Shown: one piece after another, positions 7,412 through 64,000 of the stretch
Position numbering within the stretch: the stretch's first letter is position 1
Layout of the letters: each line of letters opens with the position of its first letter
Assembly (NCBI GenBank): GCA_914767715.1
Contig: OU612075.1
Span: 9,672,001-9,736,000, forward strand
Direction of reading: 5' to 3'
DNA length: 64,000 nucleotides
From: Membranipora membranacea
Taxonomy: Eukaryota; Bryozoa; Gymnolaemata; Cheilostomatida; Membraniporidae
The notes under the pieces: model-generated
Databases searched by the model: none
What the model was told of the DNA's origin: nothing
The model's input: only the letters and a program-made list of their open reading frames with translations
Program-made: the position numbers and the translations under genes

Positions 7412-10400
7412 CTACGCGTCCGCCTCCTCATTCTCCACTCCTTTGAGCCGCAAACGAGCGAAGTCCTCAAAAATTATATCATCGTCGATTAGTGTCGGGT
7501 CATTGCCTTCCCTTTAAAAGATAAAATATAAATATTACTTCATGGATTAGAATTCAAGGGTAGTGTCACATCATAATGATACAGAATAAAATGAAATTCG
7601 GGCTGAAGATTAATTGATATAGAAGGCTGTATTAACAAGACCTTTTTAGCACATTGCAAAGATAAAATTGAACAAATTCAAGAACTTTTGGCAAAACTAC
7701 TAAATGCTTTTCTGGGGTGTTGTGGGATATTTCTGCATCATTGAAATAGTATACTATCCCTTATTCATATGCTTCGAGATGATGGAGCACGGTTGCTAGC
7801 GATTTAAATTTATTCAATTCCATTAAGTTTCAATTGCAATCATGGGAAGTTAGAAGTCAAATCACACAAGTAGGACTAACGAAAAATCATGAAAATCGGA
7901 TTGCTTGGCGTGGCGAGGCATGACCCTTAGTATACACAGCTACACAACTCTATTCTCAGGGTTGGTCTCTTATTGTTTACTTACTCTAGTTGTATGAGGT
8001 TCATATCGACGGCAGCGTCAGTATTAACACTAACAGGTCGGCTAGGTGGAGGTGTCTCTGGCTTGGGATGAGTCAGCGTGAACGGTAACTCGAGCGTGAC
8101 GTCACTAGACGACAGCAAACCCATCAACAATCGCACTTTGACTTTGTATTGCACCACTATACCCAGATTTTCTCGATTAGCATTGTCTCTTATGCTGCAA
8201 CATAAGAACACAGTCATAATACTGATATACAACTGTATGGTATACAGACGATCTCCGTGCTCCAAAAACTGCTTCACCCCTCCCAACCACAGCCTTCCAA
8301 TCAGGTGAGTTGTCCATAAACCTCACAAGATGGATAATTTGATGATCGTTTAAGGGTCAGCTCCCACTCTGTTTTGTGAGAGAAGGCAAATCTAGTCATT
8401 GTACACAATGTTTCTTTTAGTTATTTTATTATAATGGTACACAAGAACATTTAAAGTCATTAAAACAACAGTCACATGTCAAATACTGTACCGAAACAAA
8501 TGGTTCAACTCAACAACACTGTTTGACCGACACCTACATGAAAGAACTTACATGGTTGAAGAGGCCAGATTGGTGTCCTCGTGTTTGAGTTTGCCGTCGA
8601 GAGCTAGGCCTCGTTTATCTCTGTTTTCTTGTAGGCCTGGACAGAGATAGTAGACCTTACAGAACCCTGACTGACTGGGTAATACAGGCATCCCTTCTCT
8701 ACAAGATAATGTACAAGTCAATAAAAACAGTCTGCTATCACTTCGGTTTCAGCTCTGTGATTTCGGCAGCAAATTTATAATCAAAGACAATTCAATGCGG
8801 AGATTTTTCGTTTTAAATTTGGACAGTTCACCAATTTTTGCTGACTTATTTCCACAAAATTAGATTGAACTTATTGTTCAGTGGCAATGATATATTTTAA
8901 ACTTTTGTGGGGAGAGAAGCCAAAAACAAACATTATCAATGGCAAGGACTTAGAACAATGATGTTTAAAAATATCTCAGCGAAGGAATTCAAATAAGATT
9001 GTAACCATATATAAGATCATGCAATAACTCATGATTGAATTGACATGCAGAAAGCTAACACACACACAGACAGACAATTAGGCATTTTGTTAGTAAAGCC
9101 AGCATGGCAAACATGCAACTAACTGAACCACACTATAGGCCTACAAGAATCTCATCTAGAATGCTAAGGAAATTCCGTACTACTCCGAATGTGCCGCTAC
9201 TATAAACATATAAATATGTTTATGGCCTCCACAATCTCGAGATTATTTGATCAATCTGATGTTGCTACAGTGTGAGGAGCTATGAGAGGAAACTTCTACG
9301 CGAATATGAGAGCAAGATAATGTCAAAAGATTTATAGCCCGAGCAATTTAGTCTGCAGGTATGAGTTACTCACTCATAACTGAGTATGCATGTTTTACAT
9401 GCGTTCTGGTGCTTGAAGAGATGTACATCACAAAGCTGGTAAACTACAAATCACCAAACAAGCATTGACATCAATAATATTGGTGCGCAGTATGCAACAT
9501 GAAGTAAAGTTTATGTGAGACAGTGATATCACCTGATATGTGCTAATTATTGGAGTTGCCCCCTCCCAGTCTAATGTAAGGCAACTTCTAAATGTATCTC
9601 AATGATCCATTTTAAGCTCAAGCCTGCGTTGGTGCTTCATCAAAATTAAAAATGTAGCCTAGGTGCATGGTAGCAATTTCTGTGTGTCCCACAGCTTGGT
9701 AACCAACAAAACAAAGCTGATGAGCATCTAGCTGCTAAATTATTTCCGCAGCAAATTTCAGATACATGGCAAAGAAAGCCTGCTGCCCACGGTGAAGTAC
9801 TACTCAGTAGTAGGCCTAGAGTTTGGTTCATGTGTTAGCGGAGTTTGTGAAATCAGAAAGTTAGTGCAAGCAAAACAAAAAGATAGGTGAAGAGCGACAC
9901 CAAAAGTTAACTGCCATAAATTTTTATGACACCTTTGCCCGGGATGAGAACCGATAACAGAAGCATGTCAAATATGCCACAACACTGAAAGCAGATTATT
10001 GTGCCGGAATCACAGTCAGGAGTTCATATTCCAAACTGTGGTACTCAAAATTCTGGATTTCTCTGTAGAAAAGCATCTCCCTACCTCACAAGTGTAAGCG
10101 AGTGGTGATATTTTCAACTTAGTCTGAAATAATTCTATCTATGCAGCCCCACATATGTTTTGATTGTGGGGCCGCTTAGATAAGGCTTGCCTGAACCAAA
10201 CAGAATATTAAAGACTAACCTAAGAACAAAGCATGTTATAGTCAGGCAGTTACTTATGATAAAGTTGTGTCAGATTTGCATGGTTAAAATTCAATGCTCT
10301 ACTTGGCATGAATTATTGATGGTGGCAAGAGTGCCTCCCATAAAGGAAGGTAACTCTCTTGAATTTTAACCATGCAAATCTGACACAACTTTATCATATG

Positions 10401-13400
10401 TAACTGACTGACTATAACATGCTTTGTTCTTTGGGTAGTCTCTAAGGGAGTTCTTTTTTGCAGTCACGTTTCATATGTGTTTGATTTTCTACAGAGAGTG
10501 ATTCAGAGTGGTGGGGTTAGAGATAACACAACAGTGAGACCAGCAACCAGAAACGCTTACTCAGATTCCAAATCGGCTACGTTACATTTGTAACTAGCCT
10601 TGCTAAATAGTATTATGTCTGATATTTGTAGAACTGTAAATAAAGACGGAGAAATGAGTGGAGCTATGAAAGATAAAGTACTATTATTATTCTGCTGTAG
10701 CTGTTTGTTTTCAATAGCATTTAATATGACTCTGCCATATGAGGGAATTCGTAGAATTCGCTGCTTAGATTTGATGTTGGAGCGGCAACATAGTCATGTC
10801 ATGCCGCCACTCTGTTGGCCAGGTGACAAGGCTAGAGGCAATATTCCCCTGAACTGATTGTGCACACAAGCCTCCTTCCTTGAAAATGAGTTCTAAGGTT
10901 GACTTAAACGTAAGCATTTCTTTACATGGCGGCAAAGATATATGGCATAATAGCCTAGTCAGTGCCCAGCCCATTACAAAATATTCAAAATCAGGAATAC
11001 CAAAAATAAGTATTTCCTTTCAGCAAAATGAATATTCACAATGCCTAAAAATGATCACTATTAACATCACAAAGTGTGAAAGAGAACAGTATATTCATAT
11101 CTTCTGATGACACGGTTATTAATTGCTGGATGAGTTCCTATTGCATGACAATTGATAACTTCATGATGTTTATCAGTTTGGACCAAGTGGCATGTCTGCC
11201 TGTACACTTCCTAATGTCTATGGCACTTGTCTTGCAACTCTTCGGTCAGGTACTTGGCGTTTCCAGTTAACTAAATGTTCATGAGGTTGAACACAAACAA
11301 TCTAGAAACTAAGCATGACGTGTAAAAGAAAAACCAACCTGTTACAGCTATTTTCTTGACTTTTTTGTTAGAGTTGTTATCGATAGTAACATTCACAGCT
11401 AATTTTTCTCCATGAAAATATTTCTGTAAATAAACCAAAGTTCACATTATACATAATATTCATATAAATAGATAATTGTGCAACTATACTGGTATAAACT
11501 GTCATCTTGTTTATAAACGCGATTTTTTATATTTTTTATCTGTGACAGGATTGCCAAATATTAAAGACGACAAACAGACTCTGATGATAGGCCAAAATCT
11601 AGTAGAGCATCGCCATATAACCCACCTTGATATCACAGAAAATCATGAGCTGCTTGGAAAACACATTTTAATACTTTCCCAATTGCAGGGAGGTAATTCT
11701 AATGCCTCTGTATGGCACTCGCGCATCATAATATGCAAGAATTTGCCAATAAGCTGCAAGCTGATTGTCTTGACTCTTGACATTGCAAGTAGATCACTAT
11801 TGGCTCATTGGTCTAGTTTAGTAAAGCCTGGATAATAATAATATGCAAGCCTATCGGCCAACTCGATGATGAGCATGTGCCCTGCAGAGGCAACAGAGGT
11901 ATGGGTCTGCTACCATGGTTAGGTGGTTTTGTTACTAACTGCCTAGTTAGGCTTTTCTTAATATTGCTGGTTTAATAGGGAATGATAGCAATTTATCACT
12001 CCGAATTCATCATCACAAACCTACAAAAAAGCTTGTTAATGTACCAGCATTTTAACAATGATTGTGATTGTGTCATGTCAAGGCATTCCCTGCCAACACT
12101 ATACATTCTCTACCACTATTTATATCATCAGTAGAACCGTGGCAGAGAATGTATAGTGTACGCAGGGAATGCCTAGACATGACACAATCACAATCCTTGT
12201 TAAAATGCTTGTACATTGACAAGTTTTTTTGTAGGGTATATGATTAAGAACTTGTTGTAACAAATTGCCATAGTTCCCTATTAAACCAGCATTACCAAGA
12301 AAAGCCTAACTAGACAGTAAGTAATAAAACCACCGGACTATGAAAACAGACTGATTCCTAAAAAAATGATTCTACTTTAGCAACGGTATAGAACAAGCAA
12401 AACAAGTTCTGTCTAGAAAGTTTTTGTTGCCACTCTGCCTCTTTAAGAGCTAATTCAAGTTAATTTGAAAATGAGCCATCACAAATTTTTGTTAGCACTG
12501 CTCACAATTGCCACACTCCTGGTCCAAGTAGGGAGCGAGCTCTAGGGAGAATCTGATGTTATCGAGTTATCTCCCCATCACCCTCCCAACCCTAGCAACT
12601 ATTTGAATTCAGTGGTGGCTTCAATTCTGAGAGCAACAAAATGCCCTGGTTATCAAAGTTGCTTGAGAAAAATGGGTAGAATGAAAAGTGGGCAAAGCGT
12701 TAACACACCCTTACCTCCTTATCTAGTGATGCCTCTACTTTTAATTTACCCGAGGACATCATGAACTCTTTGGTACATTCAGCTCTAGGCTGAGGTGCAG
12801 ATTCCTCAGCAGCGTAGGTTAATTTCCTGATTGCCAGTCGCACTGAGTTACGTTTGTGTGGTTTCTCTGTTTCATTTTCGGCAACATAAGTTTTCAACTC
12901 ATAATCAACGCCACATGGCTGTAAGAAAAGATGAAGAATATATTAGAAGGTTATGATAATCCAGGGCTATTGGCAGTATGGACGGTCATCAAGTAAGAGA
13001 CAGACAACATTAGTGAAGCGGAGAATAGTGAATATCTAAGGTGACTGGACCTAGTTAAATTCACTCAAAATTTGGGAGATGGATCAGCTGTTAAGAACTC
13101 TGCAAACTTAGCCATAAACCTTAATTTAAGACTTCATTCTGAACAAAGGGCCATGTAACGGCATTGCAATACTATTGGGCAGCTTTCCAGGTTATGGCTG
13201 GAATGCAGGCATGGAGGCATGAGCTTCTTGAGCTTTTCAATGGATGTCCTGGATACCAACACTATGCCATTCTGCTAGGAGCCTTCCACATGCTCACTTC
13301 GTTTGGTGAACGTAAAATGAAACTTGCCCACAGAAGTTTGGCTGTTGCATGCGTACAGCTAATACTTAGAATAATTATTTTAACTACGTTGCACACTCAC

Positions 13401-19400: not shown

Positions 19401-22400
19401 GAGTTGTTTTATGTGAATTTCTGAGACCTTCTAGATTGATAGTTTCATTACGATCATGTATCAAATCACCGTTAAAATTTTAAAAGTTACAAACAAATAA
19501 AGTAGGAGATGTTTCTTTCCAATATAATGATATTAATATAATGGTAATATTGTGTGTGATTAATCAGTGTAACTGCTCTCTGAGAGGTTTTGCTAGGATT
19601 TTGCTAGATCATGTTTGGTCCATTTGCCTGCATCCGGAGTTGCTCCAGATCCACTGGTCACGCCGCAGCGCAATGACCAGTGGATCTGGAGCAACTGGAA
19701 TACAAGCAATTGTATTGAACTTGATCTAGGCTTTTGCCAACGCATTGTGAGACTAGCCATCCCACGCATCACCTTGCTCCCAGTAGGCAGCCGTTTTTTT
19801 ATCATGACAGTAAAATGTCAATAGTTTTTAATTTATAGACGAAATTGAAATGATTATATACCAGCCTACACAATTGTTTATACCTATTCAAATAAGGAAA
19901 TGGATCTTTAAACTTGATACAGACAGGTCTTTATATTACAAGTCATGATCACGCTGGAGTGCAGATATATAGATATGTAAATTATATAATATTATCTGCC
20001 CACTCGGTGATATCATCTTTGGAGGCCAAAGATAACTACCATAGTCTTTATATTATAACCACAATGATAGCTGCCGCTGCAAGGATTGTGACATGAAACT
20101 AGACTTTTGGTCTGGTAAACACTACACTTCTATCAAAATCTTATTAGGTTGCTTTCAGGCTGAGGGCACTCAATTTCACTAGGGTGATTTGTCCTTGTTC
20201 CATGACAGGATCATAAAGAACTCTATTTTTTTGTGCAGAACCAGAATGAAATAATAATATAAGGATGTTTTATCCCCGAATATCATTCCTTTTACAGACC
20301 CTTTTTTCAATGCTGACACTGTTTTCTTTTTGAATTGGGGGGGGGGGGGGAATAATAGAACAGGCTGCTTTCTAAATGGATCTGTTGCAGATCCAGTAAC
20401 CTGCTGGTGTTTCACTATTATAAATGTGCCGGAGACTGAGTCAGATGGGCAACAGACTTGCTGTTAAGCTGTGGCTACACACGCCTTATTTTCCATAGGA
20501 TTGGAGTACTTCAAGTACGGCCAGATGTATAGGATTTCTCTCAATATGATAGAAACAAAACCAACCTGGATTGTGGAGACAAATAGATCTTTGCGAAACG
20601 TCAAGCCGAGCACGTCTAAATCTTCTCGACCATATCTGAATGCTGCCAATATGTTGGCATAGACTTTTCTATCCTTGAGGTATTCAGGGTCTATTAACAC
20701 TACACCATCTACATGCGGATATGGAAAATAAAGTATAGCAAAATTACTGCTTCCAAGTTGTCCTGCATAGGTTTTCAAATGGATTGTGTGAAAACAGTTT
20801 TAAACTTTTATAGCTTCAACGGAATGATAGTAGAAATAAGGTGAAGTAGGTATGCGGTCATAATCTGCTGAGGAGAAGTTTGTGCCTATGATTTGGAGGG
20901 GATAGTTTTGTACCAAAGTTTTAAACTATTCTTACCAACGGGATCTACATTAGTTCCTGAGTCGACAAAATCTCGCTTGCCTAGATAGGTGGTGATCTAC
21001 AAAATAGCGAAATAATACTTCTATACTCTGTGATGACATGATTGGAATAATATGGCAGTTACAATTTTAATATGCTGCTATGATTGTGTGTCACAGTTGC
21101 TGCCTTTTTGCAAAGGGTCAAAGTCCATTCCCAAATTGGGTATGTTTATGTACCTTGCCAAATAGATAAAAATTGGCAGCACTTGCGAATCCACTGATGT
21201 CAAACGCAGAAATAATTGCCAAAAGAGGATCAAATGCCAAAGTTGACATGGTTTCATCGATGCACTTTTGCTGTTTTTGAGGGGTCAGAAAATCTTGTTA
21301 TCGTCATAGAACATTTATGGCATTGTATTTTCAGTCATTAGTGAATTTTTGCTGACCAAGTGTTTAAAGCCATTGGGATGTGGCAGCAGATTAAGCCTAT
21401 CATAACTCATGTTGATTGCCACACTTGGGCAGTAATAAAGGTTCAACGTTCTGAGTAAGGGGTGCAGTGACCTCGAAAGTGAAGTCAAAGACTAAAACCA
21501 TCTCGCAGCGTATATCCTTACTCTGTGATATACATAATATACATGAAAGTGACTGCATTAGTAAATCTCTTAGAAATTCAAACTATAGACAAGTTTGCAC
21601 TTATGAATAAACAATTGTCCGCAGTGTCTAATAGGCATGCTCTGTTAATTCATCTGGGAGTTTTAAAATTATGCTGCCACTGTACTGAGATCATGTTGAA
21701 TTCACGCTGCCGTTGATGCCGCTGCCGTTTGCTGACAGAGTGTAAGTAAGTAATAAGGAGCTAGAAGTCTCATCAATTCACTATAATTACTGTGAGGATC
21801 AATAATTTAACTAACCTTTCCATTCGGACTTGCTTTCTTAAAAACCCTGCAAAGGAAATGAGTATATAATGACACAAACTGTATAAACTGTTCAGCCAGC
21901 AGGAAATAGTGGCAATAGTACAGCGGCCATAGATTTTGTGATCCTGATTCAATAGTTGATATTGCTTCATCCAAATAAAAAATTCAACTATATATGCAAT
22001 CCAATCAAGGAATACTCAATCAATCTTACATACACAATACATTGTGACAGTTTCGATGGTCCGAGTTGACAGTTTTTAGGTACAAGGTAACACATTCTTA
22101 GCTTGTTATGACAGCTAGCCTACCTAAGTTGACAAGGGAATGTTGCAATCATAATGAACTGAGGTTATTTGAGCAAAATCCTCAGATCTTTTACTAGGCA
22201 GCAGCTCATTCCTAAATTGGTCACTGAGGAAAACTAGGTGGTTTCATCAGGCAGTGGGCGATTCGGGTACGGGACATCTGGTACGTATTTCGGCTACCTC
22301 AGTAAGGAACGATCAGAAATGCCACTGAGGCAAATTTTAATTGAAAGATCCCCCTTCCCTGTCTCATCAAACTAGAGAAAGTTTAGAAGCGAGACAGTCA

Positions 22401-30200: not shown

Positions 30201-33200
30201 TTGTACAATGCCAGGCCATAGACTACCTTTATACTAGCTGAGATCTAAAAATTCTCAATTGTTATGTATTGTCAATACTGTAAGTGTGCTAAGCTCTGAT
30301 CTGTTTACTTATCTGCTCTAGGATTATAATAATATGATGACTACTATCGAGAAGAGACTTAAATCATTGAGAGACGTCGCTTTTCAAGAAGAGCAGGATT
30401 ACCATCAGCTTATACTCGCAGAGAAAGATATAAATGTAAGTACAAACCACAGTGGCAATGTAAGTACACAAGACAATCCAAATGTAAGTACACAATAGAG
30501 TCTAAATGTATGTACATAATACAGTCTTAATGTAAGTACACAATACAATCTTAATGCAAGTACACAATAGAGTCTCAGTGGCATCACACACAACATCGAT
30601 ACTTTGCTTTAAGGATTTGTATGATCTTTTAAGTCATTTAGTCTGAGCAAGGAGTCTCTAACTCCATAGTCTGAGGACCTATTGTTCCTGCCCCTAACTC
30701 TATAATTTAACCTTGGTGGTCACGCCAAACTTATTCTGAAGTTACATTGACTAATTATAAATGATACGCCACTGACCCGGGATGTACACGCAATAGTATA
30801 TTATCAGGTGATCAGTGTGATGACGTAATGTCCTATGATATCACAGCTCTTGTAAACCTTAGAGATCGCTGATGTTGTAGACTTAAGCTTTTTACTTATA
30901 CACTCAATACATAGAGAGGACAACTAAGCCACAGACTGTCTAGACATGACATGATCAGTACCTGACATCGCCTATTCTTGTCTTGTTTCGTGTATACCCT
31001 TTTCATCATTTGGGTATTAAAATCACTGTATTCCTCTCAAGAGAGGTAAAGACACAAATTTGCCAGATTCTCCTTCAACATTTTTCTGAACATATAAGTC
31101 TATGGGTCCGAAACATAGACCATACAATAATAGTCTAAGAGCTCAGACTAAATAATAATACAGGTTCAACAATATATGAGTCTAATAGCTCAGACGGCTA
31201 CAAGTGCGTGTTTGTGGCATTAAATTTGTAATGTAATGCCACAAACACACACATGCAACCGAGTACTTTGACTAAAAATGATAATAATGAACCTTTATTA
31301 GTATTTAGTCTAAGGTCTACAAACACGGGTGTTTATATTAATACAAATATTGTTATGCCGAAGATGTTGAGGCATAAGAGAGGGACTTGGGTCAGGAACA
31401 CTCTCCTGTTCATCAGAAAAGCATGCAATTTTAAACAAGGGTCATCTGGTAATAAGATTAGCTTATCACACCCTCACAATTAGGATCAATGAGAAGGGCT
31501 GGGTTTGAATATGAATACTCATATGCCCTGATAACAGAGCAGGGTTTATTGAACAACATAACGTCAAAGCACAGTGACCCTGATCTTAGCTGAAGAACTG
31601 TGGTAAGTGCGTTTGCACTAGAAACTTATGTTAAATTACAGTAGAAGGTCACGCAGGGAGAATGAAATGTCTTGGAAAGGTGCCCCATTGTGACACATCA
31701 AATATGTCACCTTTGCTTACCTCATAGAGTTAATGTGCGGTTAGTGTAAGTGCACTTGTGCCCGGTCTCGTACGCTGAGAACACTTGCTCTTGATTGTCG
31801 TTTTATCAATGATGTATAGGGCTACTATCGCATGACAGGTGGTCATTGATCTTGACAGTAAATTACTAGAATGCAGTTATATCTATGGGCAATATAAATA
31901 GTGTATTCATATACTATTTATGTACTATTTGATATATATATATTTAGTCTAGTCAATTACTGTGAAATATTGACGTATTTGTCGCCCATCAAGCATCCAG
32001 ATTATTAATAAATTAGGTATTGTTTTAGTACCAACTTATAACTTATAACTTTATACTTGCGGATTCTTTTATCTTTTATTTTAAAACTTCTCATTTGAAT
32101 TTCGACAGAAAACTAAGTCTGATACAGAAGCCCAGCTACAACATGGCGGAGTGATGAATGACATTCTGTCGGAGATTTCTGATGCTGCTGATGAGTTAGA
32201 GGATGGCCTGGATGATAACTTATTCGAGTATGCCGGGCTCGAACAGAGAAAGGTATGTGCAGATTTCAGTAAACATGATGATTATATTATAGTATACACC
32301 CGAGGGTGCTGGGGGCTGGCGCATTCAACCTTGAAAGCTCCCCCAGTGGGACTTGAATTCACAAATCCTGCAGTGCCAACTGACTGCACCATCTCATTAT
32401 CCCCAATCAATCATGATTATATCGATATTATGGTTATGTAGAAAGCTACGATAGGAACTGAATTGTCTTCTCTATTGAATTGTGAAGACGACTCAACCTT
32501 AGATCAAAGCAATGTAACACTGGATGTTAGGCCTGGTGGGTCTGAGGGATTTTTTCACAATAAATGTGTTTTTGAAGAGGTTAGTCACTTTTCAGATTAA
32601 TCAAACAAATCTAGGTAAGCTGTTCACTAGTGATTTTTTTCTTTCGGGATGTTGATAAAAAAAGAAGATTTTTATAGAAATATACATATATTATATTGTA
32701 ATCCATAAATATGTAGATGCCGCTAATGATGAGCGAAATCAACCAACCATGAACGACTAAAAATATTGAATCAATGAGAATGAGATGACTTGATGCTAGA
32801 ACTAAGAGTGGTAGCAAAATATGTACTTGATTGGCCTCATGTCTTCTATGATACTCAAATCTCAACGTAAACTGTGTCGGATAGCTGGTAGTAGCATCTC
32901 ATTTTAACCACGGTTGGGAAAGTGGTTGATAATGTATGCTATTACCAGCTATCACGACACAGGTTAAGCGCTTAATCTTATCTCAATGTGCTGTTCTTAC
33001 TGTGTTGCTAATAAACATGCCTCATTCTGTAGCTAATTTGATATATTTGCTGTTGCTGAGACCATAGGAAAAGTGAATCTTTTCTTTTATAATTGATTTT
33101 TGTGTTGACAGCTGGGAAAGTCAGGAGAGAACATTGAGGCAGTAGTTAGACTGAGTTCCTCAGGTGACGAGGTTCAGAGATTGGTTGACGCTAACGGTAA

Positions 33201-36200
33201 CCAGTTCGTACTGAGTAAAAGTAAAGATTCCACGCAGCCTGTAGAAGATATCACACTATTATTGGTATGCTAAGTTTTTATTCATTCCTACTCTGTAATA
33301 TACCTTTCAAGTCGCGAATTTAAATTAAAATTGAGATATAAATTTTATTCACACCTGGATGGATCATCATTATCTGTTTGCATCGATGATCATAAGCGAA
33401 ATATGAAAGAAATATCGAATGTAAGTGCTATGGTAATAAATGGCCTTGAAGTTTTCCCTCATTCCTTGACCAATTTGTCTCTTCGATAACACAGAATTGT
33501 GTATTGTTTTGAACTGTATTGTTTGCAATATTGTCTTTTCTTGGTAAAGAGAAAGATGACTCCGTTTCTACATTTACACGCTGCTGTATATTCACCATAG
33601 AGTTATTATAAATAACAACTCTATCTCTATTTTAACTCTATGATATTCACCCAGGAAGGGTGGGAGGGTGACCCTCCCTCCCTGATTCGCAATTGTGTTA
33701 TAAACATGTAATTGCTATTTTTCAGGATTTTGTGTATATTATGATAGGATGTACTATCCTTAGTGCTCTCAGCTCTGTATTTGGCCTGCCTATCATGTTT
33801 GGTCAGGTTATATGTGGAGTCATACTTGGACCGTCCATGTTAAACGCCCTGACATCGACTATACAGATAGAAACTCTCGCTGAGCTCGGTGTTTTCTTTA
33901 TCATGTTTACTGTAGGATTGGAGTTTTCTCCTGCTCGAATTAGACAGGTTAGTGGAAGTGGTCATGACAGCAAACAGATTCGGTTTTCTAGAGCGAGCCG
34001 AGAGGTGAGAACTCAGTTTGAGCTCAAAATTTATATGGAAACACAGTGAATGGCTAAGACTGAAGGCTTAAACTTAGCAATCAAATAATTACCTTCGTCA
34101 GTGCTACGTATAGTGGCCTGCCTAGGTGTTTTATGGTAAAAACCTCATCAGAACCAAAAACGGATTTTTGCGCGATAATGTTATTGTATTTTTATTTTCT
34201 CTAACTCGTTATTATTAGTCAAGTCATTTGCACTTACTTCTCCTCTTTCCATCCAACAGGTGTTGTTCATATCAGTGGCAGGCAGCTTCGGTATAATGTC
34301 ACTGATGGTATTGTGTGGATTATTATTTTCATTGATACTGTCATCTTCGACATTCAGTGAAGGAGCGTTCATAGCCGCGTGCTTTTCTCTCAGTAGCACT
34401 CCTCTAGTCGTTAGATTCACTTCTACTCCTTCACCAACTACACAGAAACAAAATGGTAAGTCGAGATAACAGTAAAGAAATTCAAATGAACGTTGATGGA
34501 TTTTTTGCCACGCATTATTTTGTAGCTCCTCAAGGATTTGTCATGTTAAGATTACTAATCAAGTAATTTTTTCCCAACTTTTTACTTGGGACCCTGCCAT
34601 TGGCTCTGTCCAAATAGGCATCAAAAACAGCATTCTGCCTTTCATCGCCATTGCAATGAATTCTCATGAATATACTTTGATTTTACATAGGACCGTAATG
34701 TTACATAATGCTAAAACCACAAGCACTACATTCATACATTTGACTTTTTAACAGTATCGATTGAAGACCCTGCTCCATCTAGAAGCGCATATAAGCTGGA
34801 GTATGTTGAGTTCTTGCTTGGTATACTTGTACTACAAGATGTACAAATGGGGATGCTCATGGCATTCTTACCTGCTCTGGCTGGCCGTGGGTCTATTCTT
34901 GTATCAGCAGGCATTCTTATACAGGTTCTTTTAGGTAAGAAACTAAGTCTTGTACACTCCACATTCCTCTGCAACAACTTGACAGCTGGATTAAGTTTTT
35001 GTGAAACTAAATCCCCTTTCTGAAGTTTTTTTCACTCTGTGTTAGCTTAGCGTTTTTTTTAAATTATTGAAGACCAGAAGTTGTTCAAAAGCTATAGGGC
35101 TGGATCAGCAATGGCGACAATGACAAGTGTTTTAACTCGGTGAATCATGATTTCATATACCATCCTTCTGAGCTTACTTGACCAATCAGACATTCTTTGT
35201 GGGGGAACGTTATGCTTGCAGTCTAATCCAAATGTATGGAAAACTAAACTGGATAGTTTCTGTTTAATGTTATTCTCCCCTTTATGTTGCTTCATAGCAT
35301 GCTTTGGTTGTTAACCAAAGTTGATTAAGCCTGATACAACTGAAGCTGTCAAAAATACTGCATGGAATAGATTATGATTGTAATTGTCGCGCATTATTTT
35401 TCTTGCTGCTCTATGAATTTGGAGCATCTGCAATCTTACCACCCAATAATGCCTTTGTCATTTCATATAGAAACGCCAAATATGCAAAGACCTCTCTGAT
35501 AGCAGTTCCATTTCTCAAAAACTCAAATCCTTTGCCACACTGACATCGAGATTACACTATTAACATGTGAACCTCTGATCGTTATAGTCAATTTAGTACC
35601 AGTGCCTAACATGTACCCAGCCCTAATTGATAAAATGGAACACGTGTCAGCACACGTAATTACCTGTGATGGTACTCTTACTAAGTGAATTAATTCACTC
35701 TCTATCGATCAGAGATATACATGCAATAGTATATCACATGATCAGTGTGATTCGTTGCAGACCCAATTTCACTTTGTCGTTCTAGCTTTGGTGGTGGCAA
35801 TAGGGCTATCAGCTGCTACAATTAAAATAGTGCAATATGCCAAACCCACACTGCTGACGTGCTCAACTGAAATGCTGACCCTAATATCCTCTGGGCTAGC
35901 GTTTGCTATGATGTGGGTAAGTTTGTGTTAATAAAATTCAAAGGGGATTCGATGTTGCCTGTGCCACATTGTTGCATGTTTGATAACATCCAAAAATAAC
36001 CTCAATTGTTAATGGTAGGTCTAGATTGATCCGTTACACAAGCCTTTAGAGCCATCAACATCTTCTTGCCTTGAACACTTTCCCTTGAAAGGTGGCGCTG
36101 TTGGCAGTGGACGAGGCATGCGGCAGAGATTAGCTGTTGCACAGAACAACTTTTGTGATGTTTGCTGGAATGTCTATACCAGCCTCAGATATAGTGATAT

Positions 36201-40045: not shown

Positions 40046-41635
40046 CTAGCTAGGTGGAAACCTAATAGTGCTTGGCACACAGCTTGAAGGTGTGTTCTGT
40101 TGTATTAGACTGAGGGTAGTCCATGAACTTTCCAGGTGAAAGGTCCTAGATCCGAGTGCTTTGTGCCAGTCATGTGATCCCGGTCTTACCCGACACCAGC
40201 TATCATCTTTCAGGCTCATCCTCTTCTTGATCACTCCATCAAAGCCCATGATGTACCTGAGAGGCGTTGACAGAATATACTCCCCGTCCATCTCCATATA
40301 ATCGATCCCGAGAATGCTAAACAGTCCAGCTTTAGAGTTCTGTCGTCTGCTAATCGCACTATAGAATGTGGTTTTTTCTTCTTGGCTAAATTCAACCATG
40401 TCTAGCCAACAACATTGGAGCTTGAGAACTTGTAGATTCGCCAAGTGTTTTACGATAGTAATCATCATATAGGGAAGAAGTTTAAGTAGACCAGACATAT
40501 CAAGTACTACCAGATTAGGACATTGCTTTGCCAACAGGAGAAAATCATTTTCTTTGAAAGGTGTCATCTCATTTGGAAAAAAAGTGTATTCTAGTTCTTG
40601 AAAAGTTGGTACACTGACATCCAACGCTCGAAGTTTTGGAGCACGCTTTAGGAAATGTTCAACTAACAACGAAAAATTCCCAAGGCCACTCTCTGTCACC
40701 CTCAGCGTTTCCAGGGCTTCAAAGAGTAAACTGTGCCTGGAGGTTTGACCAATGTCACACTGCCAAACAGTCAACTCTAAATGCTTCAGATTTTTGAAGT
40801 TTTTGCAGAGTAGGGTCGAGTCTTGGAACTCAAGGGATGTGTACAATGGATCTGGCTCCGAATCGATCACCTTCAGACTGCCACCCAAGTAGTTTGCCAT
40901 GATCTTATCTGAAGGTAATACCATAGCTAGTCGCTCGAGATTATCACAGGGAAAGTTGACATCCAAGAAAGGATCGCCCACTTTGATATAGATAAGTTCC
41001 AGATCTTTTAATGCCGGTAGCCAGCGACAAGCAATCTGAAACACATCAACCTGCTCAGTAAATGAGTCACGGATGTACATGTGCAACTGCTGCAAATGTG
41101 GCATAGCCTTAAAGATACTGAGGAGTCCTTCCTCAGTTACTTCCGGACAGAATCCATTGTCGTCTTCAAAGTCGTTGTGTAATACAAGACATTTAAGGGA
41201 TTGAAACTGAGCAGCGAATACAAAGACAGTATTTTCTAGACTGATGCGCATCTGCGATATAATGAGCACCTTTGGATCTATCACCTTTGAGCAGTTGTCT
41301 ATTGCTGACTTCAAAAGTTCCAAATCAGTGTCTAAATCCTCACATTCATCATGACTATTTATTATTAGGGCTCCAATACCCCGCTGTTTCATATTAAGTG
41401 CGACCTCAACCTTCAAATCCCTGTATTCTAGAGCTGCAATAATGTTAGCCCAGACCTGCTTCTGACTGTAGATTAGGTCACGTAGATGAGTGCAAACCTG
41501 AGCCATTTTTGCCAAGCTTGACATCTCGAGATACTGTAATATGTTTATCTGGACATCAATGTTTAGGTCCAGGAGCTTTAGAGACGAGTCTGCATCTGCT
41601 TCCACTCTCCTCCTTTTTGTTGCGCGGGTCTCCAT
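40046..41635 (-). CDS. Intronless F-box protein with leucine-rich C-terminal region, 529 aa
   Basis: One uninterrupted reading frame. Residues 1-20 are polar with a basic KRRR patch that could be a nuclear signal. Residues about 22-65 form an F-box: LDLNIDVQINILQYLEMSSL, then AKMAQVCTHLRDLIYSQKQV, then WANI. The remainder is a series of leucine-rich segments of irregular length (FQSLKCLVLHNDF, MPHLQQLHMYI, LPALKDLELIYI, FKNLKHLELTVW, LRALDVSVPTF, CPNLVVLDMSGLL, LANLQVLKLQCCWL), typical of FBXL-type substrate-binding solenoids. It would act as the substrate receptor of an SCF ubiquitin ligase by binding Skp1. I cannot assign an orthologue. Every neighbouring gene is split by introns, so a retroposed origin is possible. 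Confidence 0.9.
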   Translation of the reverse strand: METRATKRRRVEADADSSLKLLDLNIDVQINILQYLEMSSLAKMAQVCTHLRDLIYSQKQVWANIIAALEYRDLKVEVALNMKQRGIGALIINSHDECEDLDTDLELLKSAIDNCSKVIDPKVLIISQMRISLENTVFVFAAQFQSLKCLVLHNDFEDDNGFCPEVTEEGLLSIFKAMPHLQQLHMYIRDSFTEQVDVFQIACRWLPALKDLELIYIKVGDPFLDVNFPCDNLERLAMVLPSDKIMANYLGGSLKVIDSEPDPLYTSLEFQDSTLLCKNFKNLKHLELTVWQCDIGQTSRHSLLFEALETLRVTESGLGNFSLLVEHFLKRAPKLRALDVSVPTFQELEYTFFPNEMTPFKENDFLLLAKQCPNLVVLDMSGLLKLLPYMMITIVKHLANLQVLKLQCCWLDMVEFSQEEKTTFYSAISRRQNSKAGLFSILGIDYMEMDGEYILSTPLRYIMGFDGVIKKRMSLKDDSWCRVRPGSHDWHKALGSRTFHLESSWTTLSLIQQNTPSSCVPSTIRFPPS

Positions 41636-42078
41636 TGCTCTATTATTCTGTATCTCAGTTCAGTCCTCTCGGTTCAAGGGTCCCTTCATTTACATGTTTC
41701 TCTGATAGCACACATTAGCTCTGCAGTGAACTTGTTGTAACCGCTTGTTGTTATCTGATTACTACATACTTAGAAACCATATAGTACTACTTATGTTTGA
41801 CTAGGCAAAGCTGACAAGCGAGTATGTAATTTTCTACTATCAATAGTCATGCAATGAGTAATGGTATGCTGCTTTTGTATATGAACAAAGGTGAAATAGT
41901 TATATCAGCAATCAATAACATATAATACGCAGGGCTTTCATTGAAAAATAGTTTCTCTATTTTTGCAAGAGAGGAAAGCTTGAATCAATTGATCACCATA
42001 GATCTGTCTTTTCAATAACCTAACTCTTCTGGATCCAATTCAGCCTTATTCTTCTCTTTGCAGGTTTTATGTACTAAC
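41636..42078. promoter_or_regulatory. Head-to-head intergenic region, candidate bidirectional promoter
   Basis: Only 443 bases separate the start codons of the F-box gene (minus) and the ankyrin/caspase gene (plus). TTCTCTTTGCAG at 42052-42063 looks like a splice acceptor, so the caspase gene probably has an upstream non-coding exon, perhaps within this gap. No TATA box is convincing. Confidence 0.4.
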
Positions 42079-42394
42079 ATGGCTGACAGTGACAGTACGG
42101 ACAAAACAAGGTTGGACTTCGCAAGTCTCACCAAGGAAAAGGTATGTAAGGATGACATCAGATGTGAATAGACAAATTCATATCATCATCATTAATATGT
42201 CATCATGTTTAGGAATGTGCCAAGATTCATGACTGATTGTGCTGTCACCGAAATTAATTGATTGAATATTCATTTGCTCGCTGTATCCTGACTACATTCT
42301 GTTACCATCATATGAACTGCTGTATTACCAAAGATTATAAATACTGGTCTGGTCTGGTCTGGTCTGGTATTACTATTGGTTTAGATATTTTATG

Positions 42395-42425
<31 letters not shown>

Positions 42426-45400
42426 AGAAGTTTAACTATCAAATAAACCAGTTAATAAGTTGCAACGAAGTAGCGTAGTACTTCTAAGTGATCACAAATA
42501 CCCACCACAACTTGTAAGGACAGCGCAACCTTACAGGTAGTAATATTGGCGGCTAATCAGATTGACTTGTTGTTAAACAACTAATCAGCAAACAACTAAG
42601 TAGAAGCAGGTTTGAGATAGGTTGGGATTCAGGCCAACAATGGGGCCCTATCTGTATTATTGGTTGTGTTGATATTGCTTTTTCGGTGTTGTCTACTTAC
42701 TATTGGGCATTTCTGAATGTACCCATGTGCTTGTGTTTTGGTTTTGATTGGCTGATTGGTTTTGGTTTGTTGTTGTCTGTTAACGTTGGATTTTGTCATC
42801 AAATTTGCACAACCAACCTGAGTAGACAACTTCAATTTGTGGACTGAATCCCAGTCTAGGTCCGAGAGCAACTTTCTGATGTTATTTCTTTGCTGTTTGA
42901 ATTCCATCGCCTCTTTTTCTTTCAGGCAACACTTGTGAGAAGACAGTATCAGAAATGCTGCAGTAATAGCGTACTGAGTGAACTCAAGTCCTTAATCGAA
43001 TGTTATGGCCTTCCTCTCGTAGAAGCTATTGGTGTCAATTTCGTCAAGACTGCAAGTGTAGCAGCAGTAATACTTGAATCGATCCCGACCGAGAAGCAAG
43101 AAAACTTTATCTTCAATAGTAAATTGTTCTTTTACCTTAACCCTTTACATCGAGCAAGCTCAAAAGGAAATACAGATCTAGTCAGATTTTGGCTTTCCAC
43201 AGGCTACTTCACCGGTAAGAAACTCTTTGCTAAGGATGATAAAGGAGATTGTGCTCTACACCATTCAGATAACACAGAAATATTTGTAGCCCTGCTAGAA
43301 GCCTATTCAAAGGAGTCCTCCATCCAAATATCTCAGTGCATAGATGACAGATTACTAAGCAAAGTGTGTGAAAATGGGAAAACCGAGATAGTTAAATATA
43401 TCACTACTAATCATCCTGAGCGAGCAAAGCAAATAATGCTAAAATGGCATCAGGAGGGAATATCAGCTAGTCGTTTAGCATCTTCTGGTAAAGTAACACA
43501 AATGCTGTTGAACATGTGTACATCTGATGAAAAGATTGACATGCTGAGACAGACAGACTCTGAAGGCAGGTCTGCTTTACATTTAGCCAGCGATAAAGGG
43601 CAGATAGGAGTTGTCGTAACCCTCTTAGAATATGGCAAAGAGCTGAATATTGCTGATAAAATGGTAATGCAGAAAGATGGAACAGGATGCACACCATTAT
43701 TTTATGGATGCGAGCAATGGATGGGTACGACAATCGCACATCTATTAATAAGCGCTATTTCACAGGAGCGAAGAAAGGATTTGCTCACATCCTCTGATAA
43801 TGAGGGTAGGAATATCCTACACCAGATTGCATGCAACTTTATTGGCTCAGCCAAACTAGCCGGTACGGTGATTTTGGCCCGGTTTATGTTTCGTGAGCTT
43901 ATTGAGTACTTAGTATCTCCAGATACCCTGGAAGATGTACTAATGCATCCAGATGATTCAGGTAATACCCCTCTAATGTTAGCTGTTGACTTTGGGAAGC
44001 TGTCAATGGTCAATGACATCCTTCTGTTCTTCGAAGCCCAGGTGCATAGGGAGGCCATGCTGAAAGCCTTAATTGAGCATCGCAACACTCACAGACAAAA
44101 TATATTCCACCTGACTATCATAAACCCCATGTGTGACATGTTGTTAGATCTGATAGTGCAGTTCAGTCACTATGCAGATGCCCCTAGTATCTATGAACCT
44201 GATGTGTATGGGAACTCTCCTCTGACATACTTAGCAGGGCGGTACATGACTGAGCCATTTGCGGTTGGACTGATGAAACTGTCTCTGCCTCATCGAAAAC
44301 GCATCATGTTTACAAATAACAAATCTGGCAAAAATTGCATAATGATTCTTCACAAAAATGATCATGACAAAGCTTTTTTCCTTGACTCCATCTTATGCGG
44401 GAACGATCATGTTAAGTTTGGAGGGAATGACTCGTCAACTTTTTACCACTCCAAGAATCAGAGCACAGTTTACAACTTCAATTTCCTCCAGTCCTCATAT
44501 GATGAACGTATTTGGATAGTTCTGCGATACGCTTTGAATGAATATGACATAACTTTCTCAGTCTCGATCAGCAGTCCTACTGCTGACAACAAACCTACCA
44601 AGCCTCTGGAATCTGCCAATGAAGTTCAAAAACCTATTGCAGCTGCAGCAACACAATCTGCTACTGATGAAACCACGGAATCGATTCAAGTGAGTAATCT
44701 TGCGGCCACCGGTTTTGTGTAATCGCGCTTTTGTGTAATCGCGCTTTTGTGACTGCATGCTTTGAGTCAATCACCATCATTCCATTTGTGCAGTGCAGAT
44801 AAAGTGTAATTTAATCAATGTAAAGATATTTTGTGCAAAGCCCTTGTGTTTTGGTCTTTGTAACAAAGTGAAAGTAAATGGTGATACTTGTAGGGCACCA
44901 AGAGACTACAAATCTTATTTATTGATGAGAATGACACTAGCTTGAGCAAAGCAAGAATCAGAAAACAGCTTTACGATTTGGATAAAGAGGACAGACATGG
45001 CATGCCAAAGGTCAGTCTCTGTACAAACCACTGACCTGTATTCCTCCATCAGTTAAACATTGAACGTAGTTGTGTTTATAGACAATGCTTAATTTTATAC
45101 CCCAAGACTACCAGCTTCATAGTTTTCATGGCGAGTGAATTAGCCGGGGAATTTCTCCAAGCATATAAGGTGTGGAGACATTGCGTATCAAGCAATAAAA
45201 AAATAAGTTTAGGTATCAGTAACATAACGTGTCTCAGCTGGATTTGATTCTTAATCATATCAGTTATGATATACATAATATTTAAATGCCTATTAGTCTG
45301 GGCCCCCAGACCCTTGCCCCTGCCCGACAGTCCCTTGGACTGTTGGTCTGTTGACAAGGGTTTTGAACATACTGATCTCTTTCAGGTGGTCATAAGAAAT

Positions 45401-48021
45401 GTGCCTACGAACATGGACACTTTTAGTTTCCCGCCACCTGGACCAGATTTCATGATATTGACATTGTTCTACAATGATGCGGAACCTAAAGGGTATGTAC
45501 AGATGGTGCATTGGTGTTTGTTGGTGTACCATATTGCATTGGGTGCAGAGATGCAGTACAATCAAGGAATATGTGGGAATTATAAAGAGAGGAAAAACTC
45601 AACATGAGAAACCATCTCTGCTCCCTGCTATCAGATTCTGTAGAGGTGTAGACAATCGGAGTTATCTATTCAATACATATTGTAGGGCAACTCTCAAGAG
45701 TCTTAGGTAACGTAATTGAACACATGATATATTATCCGTATTTTGTAATTAACCACTTGGTTGCAGTTTTGCCGTTTTGGTCGGTGAAACATATTGTCAC
45801 AGAGCCAGGCACTGCTTACAGTGTTTAGTTTCCAAAACTGCAATTCTAAAGGTTATTCAATTTGATCCCCATATTGAACTCTTGCAGGTCAGATGCCTTG
45901 AGTCAGAGGGTGAGAGAACATTTATCACATTCAACATCCAACAATGTAAAAGAGATTATTGACCAGTTAAAAGAACTCGAAGATGTTGAAAGGGTTGGAG
46001 TGAACTCTACTCTTGCCCGCCACACGAGTCTTGGTGATCAACTTTGTTCTGGTGATAACCCTGATACTAGCCAGAGTTACCATATTGTCAGAAGAGATGC
46101 GAAGAAGAGAGCTCTCATTGTCTACTACACTAAGGATAGAGATGAATGGGAGTACCAGTACAAAGATTGCGTTAAACTGCTTAAGCATAAGCTAGGATTT
46201 GAGGTTTGGCATATTTAGTTGTCACATCGATGTAATGTAACCATATTGTCTTCTCTTGTTTTATTGATTGATTGTGTCCAGATTCAGAAAGATCAGGGCA
46301 TTAGCAAGCTTCATGCAACTGGCTTGAAATGTGAAAGATAATAGTCAATAGTCAATTAAGAGTCGTTTGAAGTAAGAATTGTATTTTCCTGTAAAAAAAG
46401 AAGACAATATGCTATAAATAATCAAACTGAAAGATTATCCCGTTTGAAACTTCTTCCAACCTCCTTTATTTTGGCCAGGTCGGAGAATTGAAAGATATTG
46501 GTAAGGACAGCCTTCTCAAGCACATATCTGAATTCGCCAGAGAAGACACGGCATATCTATATGCTCTCGTTATAATGGCTCATGGTGACCTTAACGGCAA
46601 TGTCAGTGATGTAAACAGCGAGCCAATTAGTGTACAAAGTGTGATTGATGCGTTTTGTCATGGCACTTTGACCCCTAAGGTACGTGACGGATGTTTGATG
46701 GTTTATAATGGCAAGATATATTCTTACAAATTGATGTTCTGCGGTTAACAGTTGGCTCCGGTCTGGCTCTGGTCTTTCCCACACAAGAGCCAATTGGAGC
46801 CAACACATTGGCTGGCGTGAGTCACTAATAAATTATTGATTTTAATCCTTCGGAAAATTGATATCAGTCTAACTTATAAAACCAGTTGCCACCACAAACA
46901 CATTCTCTGTTCTAAACTATTGAATTATGGTAATTCCATTATTTTAGATTGTACTTTTGTCATTTTGCCGAGGAGAGCTACCTAAAGGTAACAGGACGCT
47001 ATCTAGCCCTGAATGCCAGATTCTTCCTGGTATACTGGATAAATCGGAGTTTTCTCCCTCAAAAGATCCTCTAAATAAGAAATCAAAAGTTAAAGAATGG
47101 AGGAAGCACCCGTTTCCTGATGTCATTGTACCGACAAGTTGTCATGTCATGTACTCAACACTACCTGACAGCAAGTAAGAGATACAGAAACCACATCTTA
47201 TAGCTACCTGAGTAAAGCCGTTTTGTATCAATATATATAAAGTGGCCCAGTTGCATGCACAGATATATGGATGCTGTTATAGAACAAAACACCCAAATAT
47301 AAGCATCACAGCATTTGACAGGTGGGGTAGCGTCGAAGCTTGGCACCCAATTCCAAATATCTCAATTCAATAATGTTGCCAATAGGAAAAATTTGCACCG
47401 AGTCACACTTTTATTACCTTGTCAATTTGATGGTTTAACTTTTTATGGTGTAGTTGAACATTGTCCCTTGTCACTAGCATTGCAATTATTATTATTATAC
47501 ACTTTTGATAGACAATAACAATCATGGCGATCTCTGTTTGTTGAAAATATGTTTTCAACATCCAAATGTTTTATATTTTCAGGGCACCCAGGAGGCAATG
47601 TTTATTTGGGGTCATGTGCGAACATATTGATGATATCATAGCTTCAGTTGATGGAGCACAACTTGTGAAAGTTATGTCTATTAATGAGGAGAAACCAGAA
47701 TCACTGCAACTACATTCAACATCTCAAGAATTTGGTGGCGCAAGGCCCAAAGTAACTTTGAAATTACAGCCTGCCAGACGATCAGACGCCACCCCTGTAG
47801 AACGTAAAATGGCAACTATACATCATGATAAAGGTGTAACCACAGGGAAGCATGCCCCATCAATGCCCACTACAGGTGACATCAACATTGATCTCTTAGA
47901 GGCTTTTGTTGACGTGTCTGCGCTTGTCCGAGAGAGGTCAGGCTTTACACAGTACACAAATCACTGTTACGCAGTCGATAAAAGCAGTCAGAGGCTCCTC
48001 ATACAGATACCGCCTCATTGA
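42079..48021 (+). CDS. Ankyrin-repeat / caspase-like fusion protein, 1077 aa
   Basis: Exons: 42079-42141, 42926-44689, 44894-45010, 45386-45492, 45888-46203, 46479-46679, 46948-47174 and 47583-48021. All are GT-AG with consistent phases; 3234 nt including TGA. Residues 22-609, in one long exon, carry about eight ankyrin-type units (PLHRASSKGNTDLVRFWLS, CALHHSD, SALHLASDKGQIGVVVTLLE, TPLFYGCEQ, NILHQIAC, TPLMLAVDFGKLSMV, NIFHLTIIN, SPLTYLAGRY). Residues about 610-750 are an alpha/beta stretch I cannot assign. Residues about 755-1077 read as a caspase: RALIVYYTKD (first strand), LLKHKLGFEVGELKDIG, the catalytic histidine in VIMAHGDLNG (His824), the catalytic cysteine in IVLLSFCRGELPKG (Cys863), the p10 substrate-pocket segment MYSTLPDSKAPRR, and an ending LLIQIPP. 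The usual QACxG box is SFCRG. Whether it is proteolytically active is uncertain. Confidence 0.88.
42344..42425 (+). repeat. TGGTC repeat followed by (AT)n
   Basis: Several CTGGT units near 42344-42369, and an uninterrupted AT dinucleotide run from about 42399 to 42425, in intron 1 of the ankyrin/caspase gene. Confidence 0.85.
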
Positions 48022-48380
48022 TGTGAGAATTTATCATCCAAGAACAGCATCTGAGCAGAAGAGCATGACATATCTCAAATTATTGTAATTTATAAACTGG
48101 AAAAAGCAGTCAAATCATTGCAAGGAATCATGCATTCATGTCCAGAATTACAAATAACCGTAGCAAAGATGACTCTGATCTGCTCCTAAGTGACGCTATG
48201 CTTCTTCTTTTCGTTATTTTCACCTTATTTTATGCTACTACCTTGCTCTCACGGATGTTATGTCTGTGAGGTTAGCACGTAACTTTTATTTGCATTAATT
48301 ATAAACTTTTAGAAAACCTCAATAAATAATTCCAGGTTGACTACTCTTGAAAAAAAGGAGCATAACTCTGTTTACATACA

Positions 48381-48598
48381 CACTGACATCGAGATTACAC
48401 TATTAACATGTGTATCTGTGATCGTTAGAGTCAATTTAGTAGCAGTACCTAACATGTACCCACCCCTAATTAATAAAATTGAACACGGGTCGTCACACCA
48501 AATTCTTTGTGATGGTACTACTACTAAGTGAATTAATTCACTCTCTATCGATCAGAGATATACATGCAATAGTATATCACGTGATCAGTGTGGTTTAC
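48381..48598 (+). repeat. 215-bp dispersed repeat, copy 2
   Basis: Matches 35540-35757 from CTGACATCGAGATTACACTA through GAGATATACATGCAATAGTA to GTGATCAGTGTGGTT. Confidence 0.85.
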
Positions 48599-49608: not shown

Positions 49609-49770
49609 TGGGCTCCTGGGACTTACATGTCTTTACTTTGCCAATGTCCACTATCAACCACCCAAAAACACCAAACAGGGTGAGACACAAAGCAAATGGG
49701 GTGGTTAATGTGGGTGGTCGAAACTGGACATTGACAAAGTAAAGGCACACAAGTAAGTCCCAGGGGCCCA
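49609..49770. repeat. Inverted-repeat element with TGGGCYCCTGGGACTTAC ends
   Basis: TGGGCTCCTGGGACTTACAT, then CTTTACTTTGCCAATGTCCA, is mirrored by TGGACATTGACAAAGTAAAG, then AAGTAAGTCCCAGGGGCCCA. A third single arm, TGGGCCCCTGGGACATAC, lies at 49266 on the far side of the LINE fragment. Confidence 0.75.
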
Positions 49771-62580: not shown

Positions 62581-64000
62581 TATGAGCTAAGAGAAGCTCA
62601 ACATTGTTTCTAATCCATCCATAATCTGTATTAGTCTACTAGCAACATGGTGAAGGTCATGTGGGTCAACATTGTTGATGAGGATGAGGACAATGAAATC
62701 CCAATTTGTGCGTTACATATTTAAATCATCTCAAATTATTCTTGCGACTTACTTGCATGCAAAGTCTTGACTATGTAATATGTGTAACTCAACTAACAAC
62801 ATAGTGATGGGCAAGAGGGTCAACATTGTTGCCATCGGATTTCCTGTTAAGAGCTTACGGTCAGGCACCTGCATATCCATTTAATGTTTTGGCCTTGTTT
62901 CTTTCAGTCCTACCAATAAAAATAAGCATACCTACATTTATATATATTATTATGATTATGTCCTACCCAGAAGATATTTTGCACATTTATGTGTGTAGTC
63001 TTCTTGCTGATCGATATTGCTGATATGGATTTCACGTTACGAGCTTGGTTCGCATATTCACTTAATGTTCTGGCCCTGTGTTTTTTCAGTCCGCGTCATT
63101 ATGATAAACATTATTACATTTATATATTATAGGTAGGTATTTTGCATTGTGATTTTTTAACTCATCATTGTGTGTCTCAAATAAAGTCTTATTTGTCTCA
63201 TTATTGTTCCCTATCTGATAAGTCATGACGATGAGCCATAAACATACAAATCAGAATAGACTATAAGATAGTCTATGTTTATTATTCATGTCTGTTATAG
63301 AATAAGAATAATTGTGTTCTGATGTGCTATTTACACAATCTCCGCGGCGATGTTCTGTCAGAATCTGCCCCATTTTCCCAATGTCATTTTCCCACCAAGC
63401 CATTTTCCCACCAAGCCATTTTCCCACCTCCCCTTTTCCCACTCTGCTGTTTTCCCACCTGGACATTTTCCCACCGAGCCATTATTCCACCGGGTTGATT
63501 TCCCACTGTGCCAATTTCCTACCTGGATGTTTTCCCACCAATCTAGTTTCCCACCTGGATGTTTTCACACCAATCCATTTTTCCACCTAGACATTTGTTC
63601 AACAAGCCATTATCCCACCAGGCCGTTTTCCCACCAAACAATTTTCCCAACAGGACAATTTCCCACCAAACAATTTTCCCAACAGGACAATTTACCACAG
63701 TGCTGTTTTCCCACCACAAAAGTTTTTCACCGGACAATTTTCCCTTTGTAGCCTTTTTTTCAGGCTAAGCCATTCACGTTTCACAAATACGTTAACAATG
63801 TTCACATCCAGCCAACACTGGAGAAATAATAGCTTTGGAAATGGAGATGTGACCTGATTTTTTTAGTAGCGGGTTGATTTTGATTTGAGTTTTTTATTGC
63901 ACAAGTTAGTCCAAGTAGTTTATTTAATCAAAATTGCCTCCTTTGTTATAAACTACTTTTTTGACAAAACAATTTAATGGTGCCTATGCCAATTCTCAAA
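62581..64000. other. 3' flank of the TRIM-like gene to window end
   Basis: Contains AATAAA-type signals (near 62918 and 63180) and the C-rich minisatellite at 63363-63745. No gene is recognised. The window ends in AT-rich DNA. Confidence 0.5.
63363..63745 (+). repeat. C-rich minisatellite, ATTTTCCCACCAAGCC-type unit
   Basis: About twenty diverged units of roughly 18 bases, each with TTTCCCACC followed by a variable five to seven bases. Because the unit is a multiple of three, long open frames exist on both strands, but they are repeat artefacts. Confidence 0.9.

Follow-up and report, generated by a model that had tools for sequence, protein, structure and literature searches.

A predicted bryozoan gene joining an ankyrin-repeat array to a divergent caspase domain

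Introduction

Ankyrin repeats serve to bind other proteins, whereas caspases are enzymes that carry out cell death. Caspases are usually activated on adaptor platforms through death-fold domains, and initiator caspases carry a CARD or a DED. Other arrangements have been published: passages of PMC2575513 describe LRR-caspase and TNFR-caspase hybrids from amphioxus, the TNFR-caspase validated by cDNA, while CARD-caspases of corals are described in passages of PMC7586219, and the TRADD-N proteins that passages of PMC8195603 describe from sponges and other marine invertebrates are a diversifying, immune-type group whose variable C-termini include ankyrin repeats or a caspase. Here we analyse a gene on the forward strand of a 64,000-nucleotide stretch of the bryozoan Membranipora membranacea (assembly GCA_914767715.1, contig OU612075.1, positions 9,672,001 to 9,736,000; hereafter the window, in whose coordinates all positions are given). 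On the reading we consider likely, this one animal gene encodes a hybrid caspase with an N-terminal ankyrin array, a linker of ~260 residues and a C-terminal caspase domain of the p20/p10 type.

Like the amphioxus hybrids, the predicted protein fuses a recognition module straight to a caspase domain, a layout that in amphioxus was proposed to shorten the path to cell death; it differs from them in bearing ankyrin repeats where they bear LRR or TNFR modules, in reading SFCRG where they read QACXG, and in being known from genomic sequence alone (passages of PMC2575513). With the CARD and DED initiator caspases it shares a long N-terminal part ahead of p20/p10, and activation by clustering would be analogous, but that part is an ankyrin array in which Pfam detects no death-fold domain. 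Most TRADD-N proteins, by contrast, start with death-like domains and TRADD-N, neither of which was detected here, and ankyrin repeats and caspase are alternatives among them, whereas both occur here in one predicted protein (passages of PMC8195603).

The initial annotation of this locus knew of no described family with such a layout. As far as a name goes this agrees with the open-access literature searched, in which no named ankyrin-caspase family stood among the matches listed, as judged from passages of the papers; supplements, domain databases and subscription papers may already list such architectures. The phrase “ankyrin-caspase” occurs once, in a single paper on disease variants and isoforms (PMC13429693), and a second phrase matched no paper. 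The word “ankyrin” is absent from PMC4715348 (coral), PMC3196919 (amphioxus), PMC7836458 (bivalves), PMC12909245 (sponge) and PMC2575513, and no ankyrin-caspase fusion is seen in the ankyrin or caspase passages of PMC6321704, PMC6040629, PMC5094078 and PMC3499355. The principle of a hybrid caspase, on the other hand, is not new, because the LRR-caspase and TNFR-caspase of amphioxus are already described in passages of PMC2575513. It is plausible that the ankyrin-caspase is another such hybrid with a sensor part unlike those of amphioxus, an interpretation that finds partial support in what follows.

Results

Eight coding exons on the forward strand at 42079–48021, joined from the sequence, give a reading frame of 3234 nt that encodes 1077 residues followed by a stop (Table 1). 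All seven introns are of the GT-AG type, the phases match, and there is no internal stop in the 1077 codons, in agreement with the single phase-consistent gene that had been proposed. The open reading frame, the presence of both domains and the order of the catalytic residues are directly supported.

The C-terminal part had been claimed to have the order of a caspase, and Pfam bears this out: in the joined protein it places Peptidase_C14 on residues 757–948, with an E-value of 3.1e-8 and 34 bits, above the curated cut-off of 21.4. The caspase domain is spread over four exons. None of exons 3, 4, 5, 6, 7 and 8 matches Peptidase_C14 when taken singly (E up to 10). The match thus arises only after exon joining, in favour of the splices proposed inside the caspase part, with the reservation that short pieces are less powerful. 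When the caspase part was compared with the PDB at E up to 10, 26 of the 29 matches were caspases (caspase-4, caspase-6 and ancestral caspase-6) and none carried a metacaspase or paracaspase name, though only the best of them falls under 0.01 (0.0023), which tempers their weight. The second row (0.017), a spike-protein construct, was set aside as a chance match. Alignment of residues 746–1077 with human caspases 1, 3 and 8 by hhalign scored 37.0, whereas 200 shuffles reached no more than 23.6, and it paired LGFEV...AHG...PKIVLLSFCRG with the caspase large subunit. With a profile made from the same three caspases the whole protein scored 11.0 bits, and none of 2000 shuffles exceeded 7.3.

The catalytic histidine and cysteine of caspases are found in order, as H824 of the AHG motif and C863 of the CRG motif, both at the positions originally assigned to them. 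Two arginines define the caspase S1 pocket, and MAFFT alignment offers a candidate for each. The register of the first, R768, is uncertain because its loop is ~5 residues shorter than that of caspase-1 (hand count); the second, R935, has the same spacing from STxP as in caspase-3 (hand count), and the PR pair is kept in P0001, the relative described below. Because the pentapeptide is SFCRG and not QACXG, we call the product a divergent caspase-domain protein rather than a canonical caspase, one with an intact His/Cys pair for which catalytic activity and a preference for Asp are predicted.

The ankyrin array is supported in the joined protein, where Ank_2 matches in three stretches (3.1e-20; 73 bits against a cut-off of 27.3) and Ank at 2.9e-13, so that several repeats exceed the profile cut-off, as in ankyrin repeat proteins generally. 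On a simple consensus score, three strong units (residues 90–115, 234–259 and 366–391) clear the 5% level of shuffled maxima. Two weaker ones (160–185 and 274–299) pass the per-position threshold only, a threshold that is lenient, since three windows of low score that lie outside the ankyrin half pass it too. By eye the pattern runs on to about residue 485. Of the “about eight” ankyrin units first proposed, the array itself is therefore upheld by Pfam and the count is not firm, the units beyond these five being recognised by eye. Exon 2 holds, in order, an N-terminal part without family match, the ankyrin repeats and ~125 residues without family match; compared with the PDB, it matched ankyrin proteins. 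A PADLOC match of this exon (PDC-M72A, 2.2e-4) was judged to be ankyrin similarity.

Residues 1–93 match no Pfam family at E up to 10, and neither a CARD, a DED nor a death domain was found by Pfam in the whole protein at E up to 1; the N-terminal death-fold domain of the CARD and DED initiator caspases was thus not detected. Single-sequence fold models were poor, with a mean predicted local distance difference test (pLDDT) score of 43.8 for exon 2 and 54.8 for residues 22–114, and were not used; Foldseek gave no match under E 0.001 with either, some of the weak matches of the exon 2 model being ankyrin proteins.

Between the two halves, ~260 residues (about 486–745) carry no recognised domain. 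Residues ~600–745 match nothing in Pfam under E 0.2 and nothing in NCBIfam; their best PDB match is at 0.22, and no caspase similarity was found. At E up to 1, neither the whole protein nor the linker matched TRADD-N or death-like domains, which leaves room for remote similarity. Part of the linker (44894–46041, residues 610–735) shows by eye an alternation of strands and helices, with no family match, and could be an undescribed domain.

The Peptidase_C14 match extends into p10 only as far as residue 948. The caspase domain probably continues beyond that point as far as the C-terminus, interrupted in p10 by an insert: on our reading, the last 45 residues (~1032–1077) can be laid on the final caspase helix and strand, a register that hhalign also picks, without significance (score 11.5, probability 0.1). 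The same C-terminal portion is present in P0001, a protein of 189 aa on an ENA contig of 1101 bases. Of 1279 candidates it alone matched the caspase part at E up to 10, with E 8.2e-11 and 65% identity across a C-terminal 13% of the query. Compared with exon 8, P0001 shows 43% identity; FVDVSALVRExSGFTQYTNHCYxV is almost unchanged in it, and its insert is far shorter. P0001 supports conservation of the C-terminal portion of exon 8 and is uninformative on the ankyrin half. Its match to the window (47557–48009) begins ~8 residues ahead of the exon 8 border. We take this overhang to be due to chance and the border to be a shared intron, in which case the source of P0001 would be eukaryotic.

Wider searches for relatives gave nothing at E up to 0.01 when residues 600–1077 were compared with long proteins (best 7993 candidates by shared words), and nothing at 1e-10 for exon 2 (best 7999 candidates by shared words). 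The viral contigs and prokaryote genome contigs scanned held no relative, which is what one would expect if the gene is an animal one, as the type of caspase and the structure of the gene also suggest. Within the 64-kb window, tblastn with the 1077-residue protein found no convincing paralogue outside the gene, its one match being a 13-residue chance match (E 0.54).

Splice sites were ranked with generic weights among the GT and AG sites within 41900–48100 (356 donors, 404 acceptors). None of the background segments of exon 2 length that were sampled was open (number of segments unrecorded). The codon score is a weak test and partly self-trained, because exon 2 sits in its training set; by it, a fraction of 0.004 of open background scores at least as high as exon 1. 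Intron 2 contains a 16-base unit repeated perfectly in tandem (2.4 copies, 44713–44751), an array that covers the stop that ends the unspliced ankyrin frame.

Table 1. Features of the ankyrin-caspase gene, in window coordinates; splice-site ranks are among 356 donors and 404 acceptors.
Feature	Position	Strand	Description
Exon 1	42079..42141	+	Residues 1-21; ATG at 42079; donor rank 7/356
Exon 2	42926..44689	+	Residues 22-609; 588 open codons; donor rank 3/356
Ankyrin region	43130..44317	+	Residues ~90-485; outer limit 485 drawn by eye
Exon 3	44894..45010	+	Residues 610-648, linker; 117 nt; weak acceptor, rank 80/404
Exon 4	45386..45492	+	Linker; acceptor rank 12/404
Exon 5	45888..46203	+	Remaining linker and start of caspase large subunit; acceptor rank 25/404, donor rank 45/356
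R768	46138..46140	+	Candidate first S1-pocket arginine; MAFFT column of conserved Arg in caspases 1, 3 and 8
Exon 6	46479..46679	+	Large subunit, with catalytic His
H824	46581..46583	+	AHG motif; aligned with catalytic His of caspases 1, 3 and 8
Exon 7	46948..47174	+	Rest of large subunit, including catalytic Cys; intersubunit linker; beginning of p10; acceptor rank 50/404
C863	46966..46968	+	SFCRG; aligned with catalytic Cys of caspases 1, 3 and 8
Exon 8	47583..48021	+	p10 with ~75-residue insert (by eye), C-terminal 45 residues common to P0001, stop
R935	47590..47592	+	Candidate second S1-pocket arginine; MAFFT column; 6 residues past Pro of STxP
AATAAA	48321..48326	+	Candidate polyadenylation signal, 300 bases 3' of stop

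Discussion

While we favour a single gene for a hybrid caspase, a number of observations weigh against it. The codon scores of exons 3–7 are only mildly coding-like (open-background fractions of 0.069, 0.114, 0.071, 0.070 and 0.148, respectively), and that of exon 8 is slightly negative, though 0 of 199 open segments attain it. The protein searches and the scans of viral and prokaryote contigs turned up no relative that has both halves. MAFFT sets the last caspase helix on residues just ahead of the p10 insert, neither the p10 piece nor P0001 has a significant match to known caspases (for the p10 piece, none in the PDB at E up to 10), and the pentapeptide, in which CRG is retained, departs from QACxG. 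AATAAA is present inside introns 1, 3 and 6. Finally, the acceptor of exon 3 is weak, and Met646, Met658 or Met671 would permit a separate caspase gene to start; together with the frame of exon 2, which reads through to a stop at 44720–44722, these last features would suit two adjoining genes, an ankyrin-only protein ending 10 residues past exon 2 and a separate caspase beginning in exon 3 or 4. We nonetheless judge two genes unlikely. The donor of exon 2 is very good, ranking third among the 356 GT sites, and precedes the end of the open frame by 33 bases; downstream of it lies a choice of in-frame acceptors, exons 3 and 4 both being entered in phase 0, and skipping of exon 3 would leave the frame intact because its 117 nt are followed by an exon of the same entry phase. 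Only 204 bases, the length of intron 2, separate the two parts, with neither AATAAA nor ATTAAA among them, and a caspase starting at Met646 would still bear ~100 N-terminal residues of unrecognised type. This splice logic suggests that a single transcript carries the ankyrin and caspase halves.

The fusion could be real and yet not yield an active, Asp-specific caspase, the product serving as a scaffold or decoy if it is a pseudo-protease or having a changed specificity. SFCRG in place of QACxG, the shortened first loop, the p10 insert and the lack of a PDB match for the p10 piece all point in this direction, but the His, the Cys and two alignable arginines are retained, and we hold such a loss or change to be quite improbable. 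Least credible to us, and very unlikely indeed, is that the locus is in decay or mis-assembled, or that the halves are joined by a minor isoform only: this would fit with no relative of the whole protein having been found, and is contradicted by 1077 stop-free codons spread over eight exons.

For the hybrid caspase encoded by one gene, we envisage as the likeliest mechanism a sensor-protease that is switched on by ankyrin-driven clustering. The ankyrin array would bind a cellular or foreign protein and thereby gather copies of the molecule, whose clustered caspase parts would dimerise and might then cleave themselves in the intersubunit linker, with D887 as one candidate site; the protease could subsequently act further downstream, on substrates involved in cell death or innate defence. 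Each of these steps, from clustering, dimerisation and self-processing to activity, Asp preference and biological role, is modelled on the action of initiator caspases, and an active sensor-effector role may reasonably be inferred. More tentatively, and with less confidence than in the fusion itself, we suggest that the gene could represent a caspase lineage in which an ankyrin array of its own has replaced death-fold recruitment, the altered pentapeptide and p10 insert perhaps being suited to unusual substrates. If the fusion is real, the ankyrin-caspase would lead from recognition to proteolysis within a single molecule and would add to the hybrid caspases known from amphioxus.

Genomic context

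Upstream, a single-exon F-box gene (F-box 4.7e-7) lies on the reverse strand at 40046–41659 with a candidate ATG at 41635; this ATG and that of the ankyrin-caspase gene stand head to head, 444 bases apart, and a shared promoter region is possible. A 217-base repeat occurs at 35536–35752 and, 90% identical, at 48379–48595, the second copy just 3' of the caspase gene. Elsewhere in the window, an exon bearing an arrestin N-terminal domain (3.6e-6) is found at 20467–20799 on the reverse strand, and one from a transporter of the sodium/hydrogen exchanger type (1.1e-14) at 33672–34046 on the forward strand, which perhaps continues at 34179 (0.037, below cut-off). Five self-reverse-complement stretches with 71–81% identity (10208–10445, 11897–12359, 19604–19729, 31138–31318 and 49609–49770) resemble small inverted-repeat transposons, and a tandem array with units of 16, 32 and 64 bases occupies 63370–63716.

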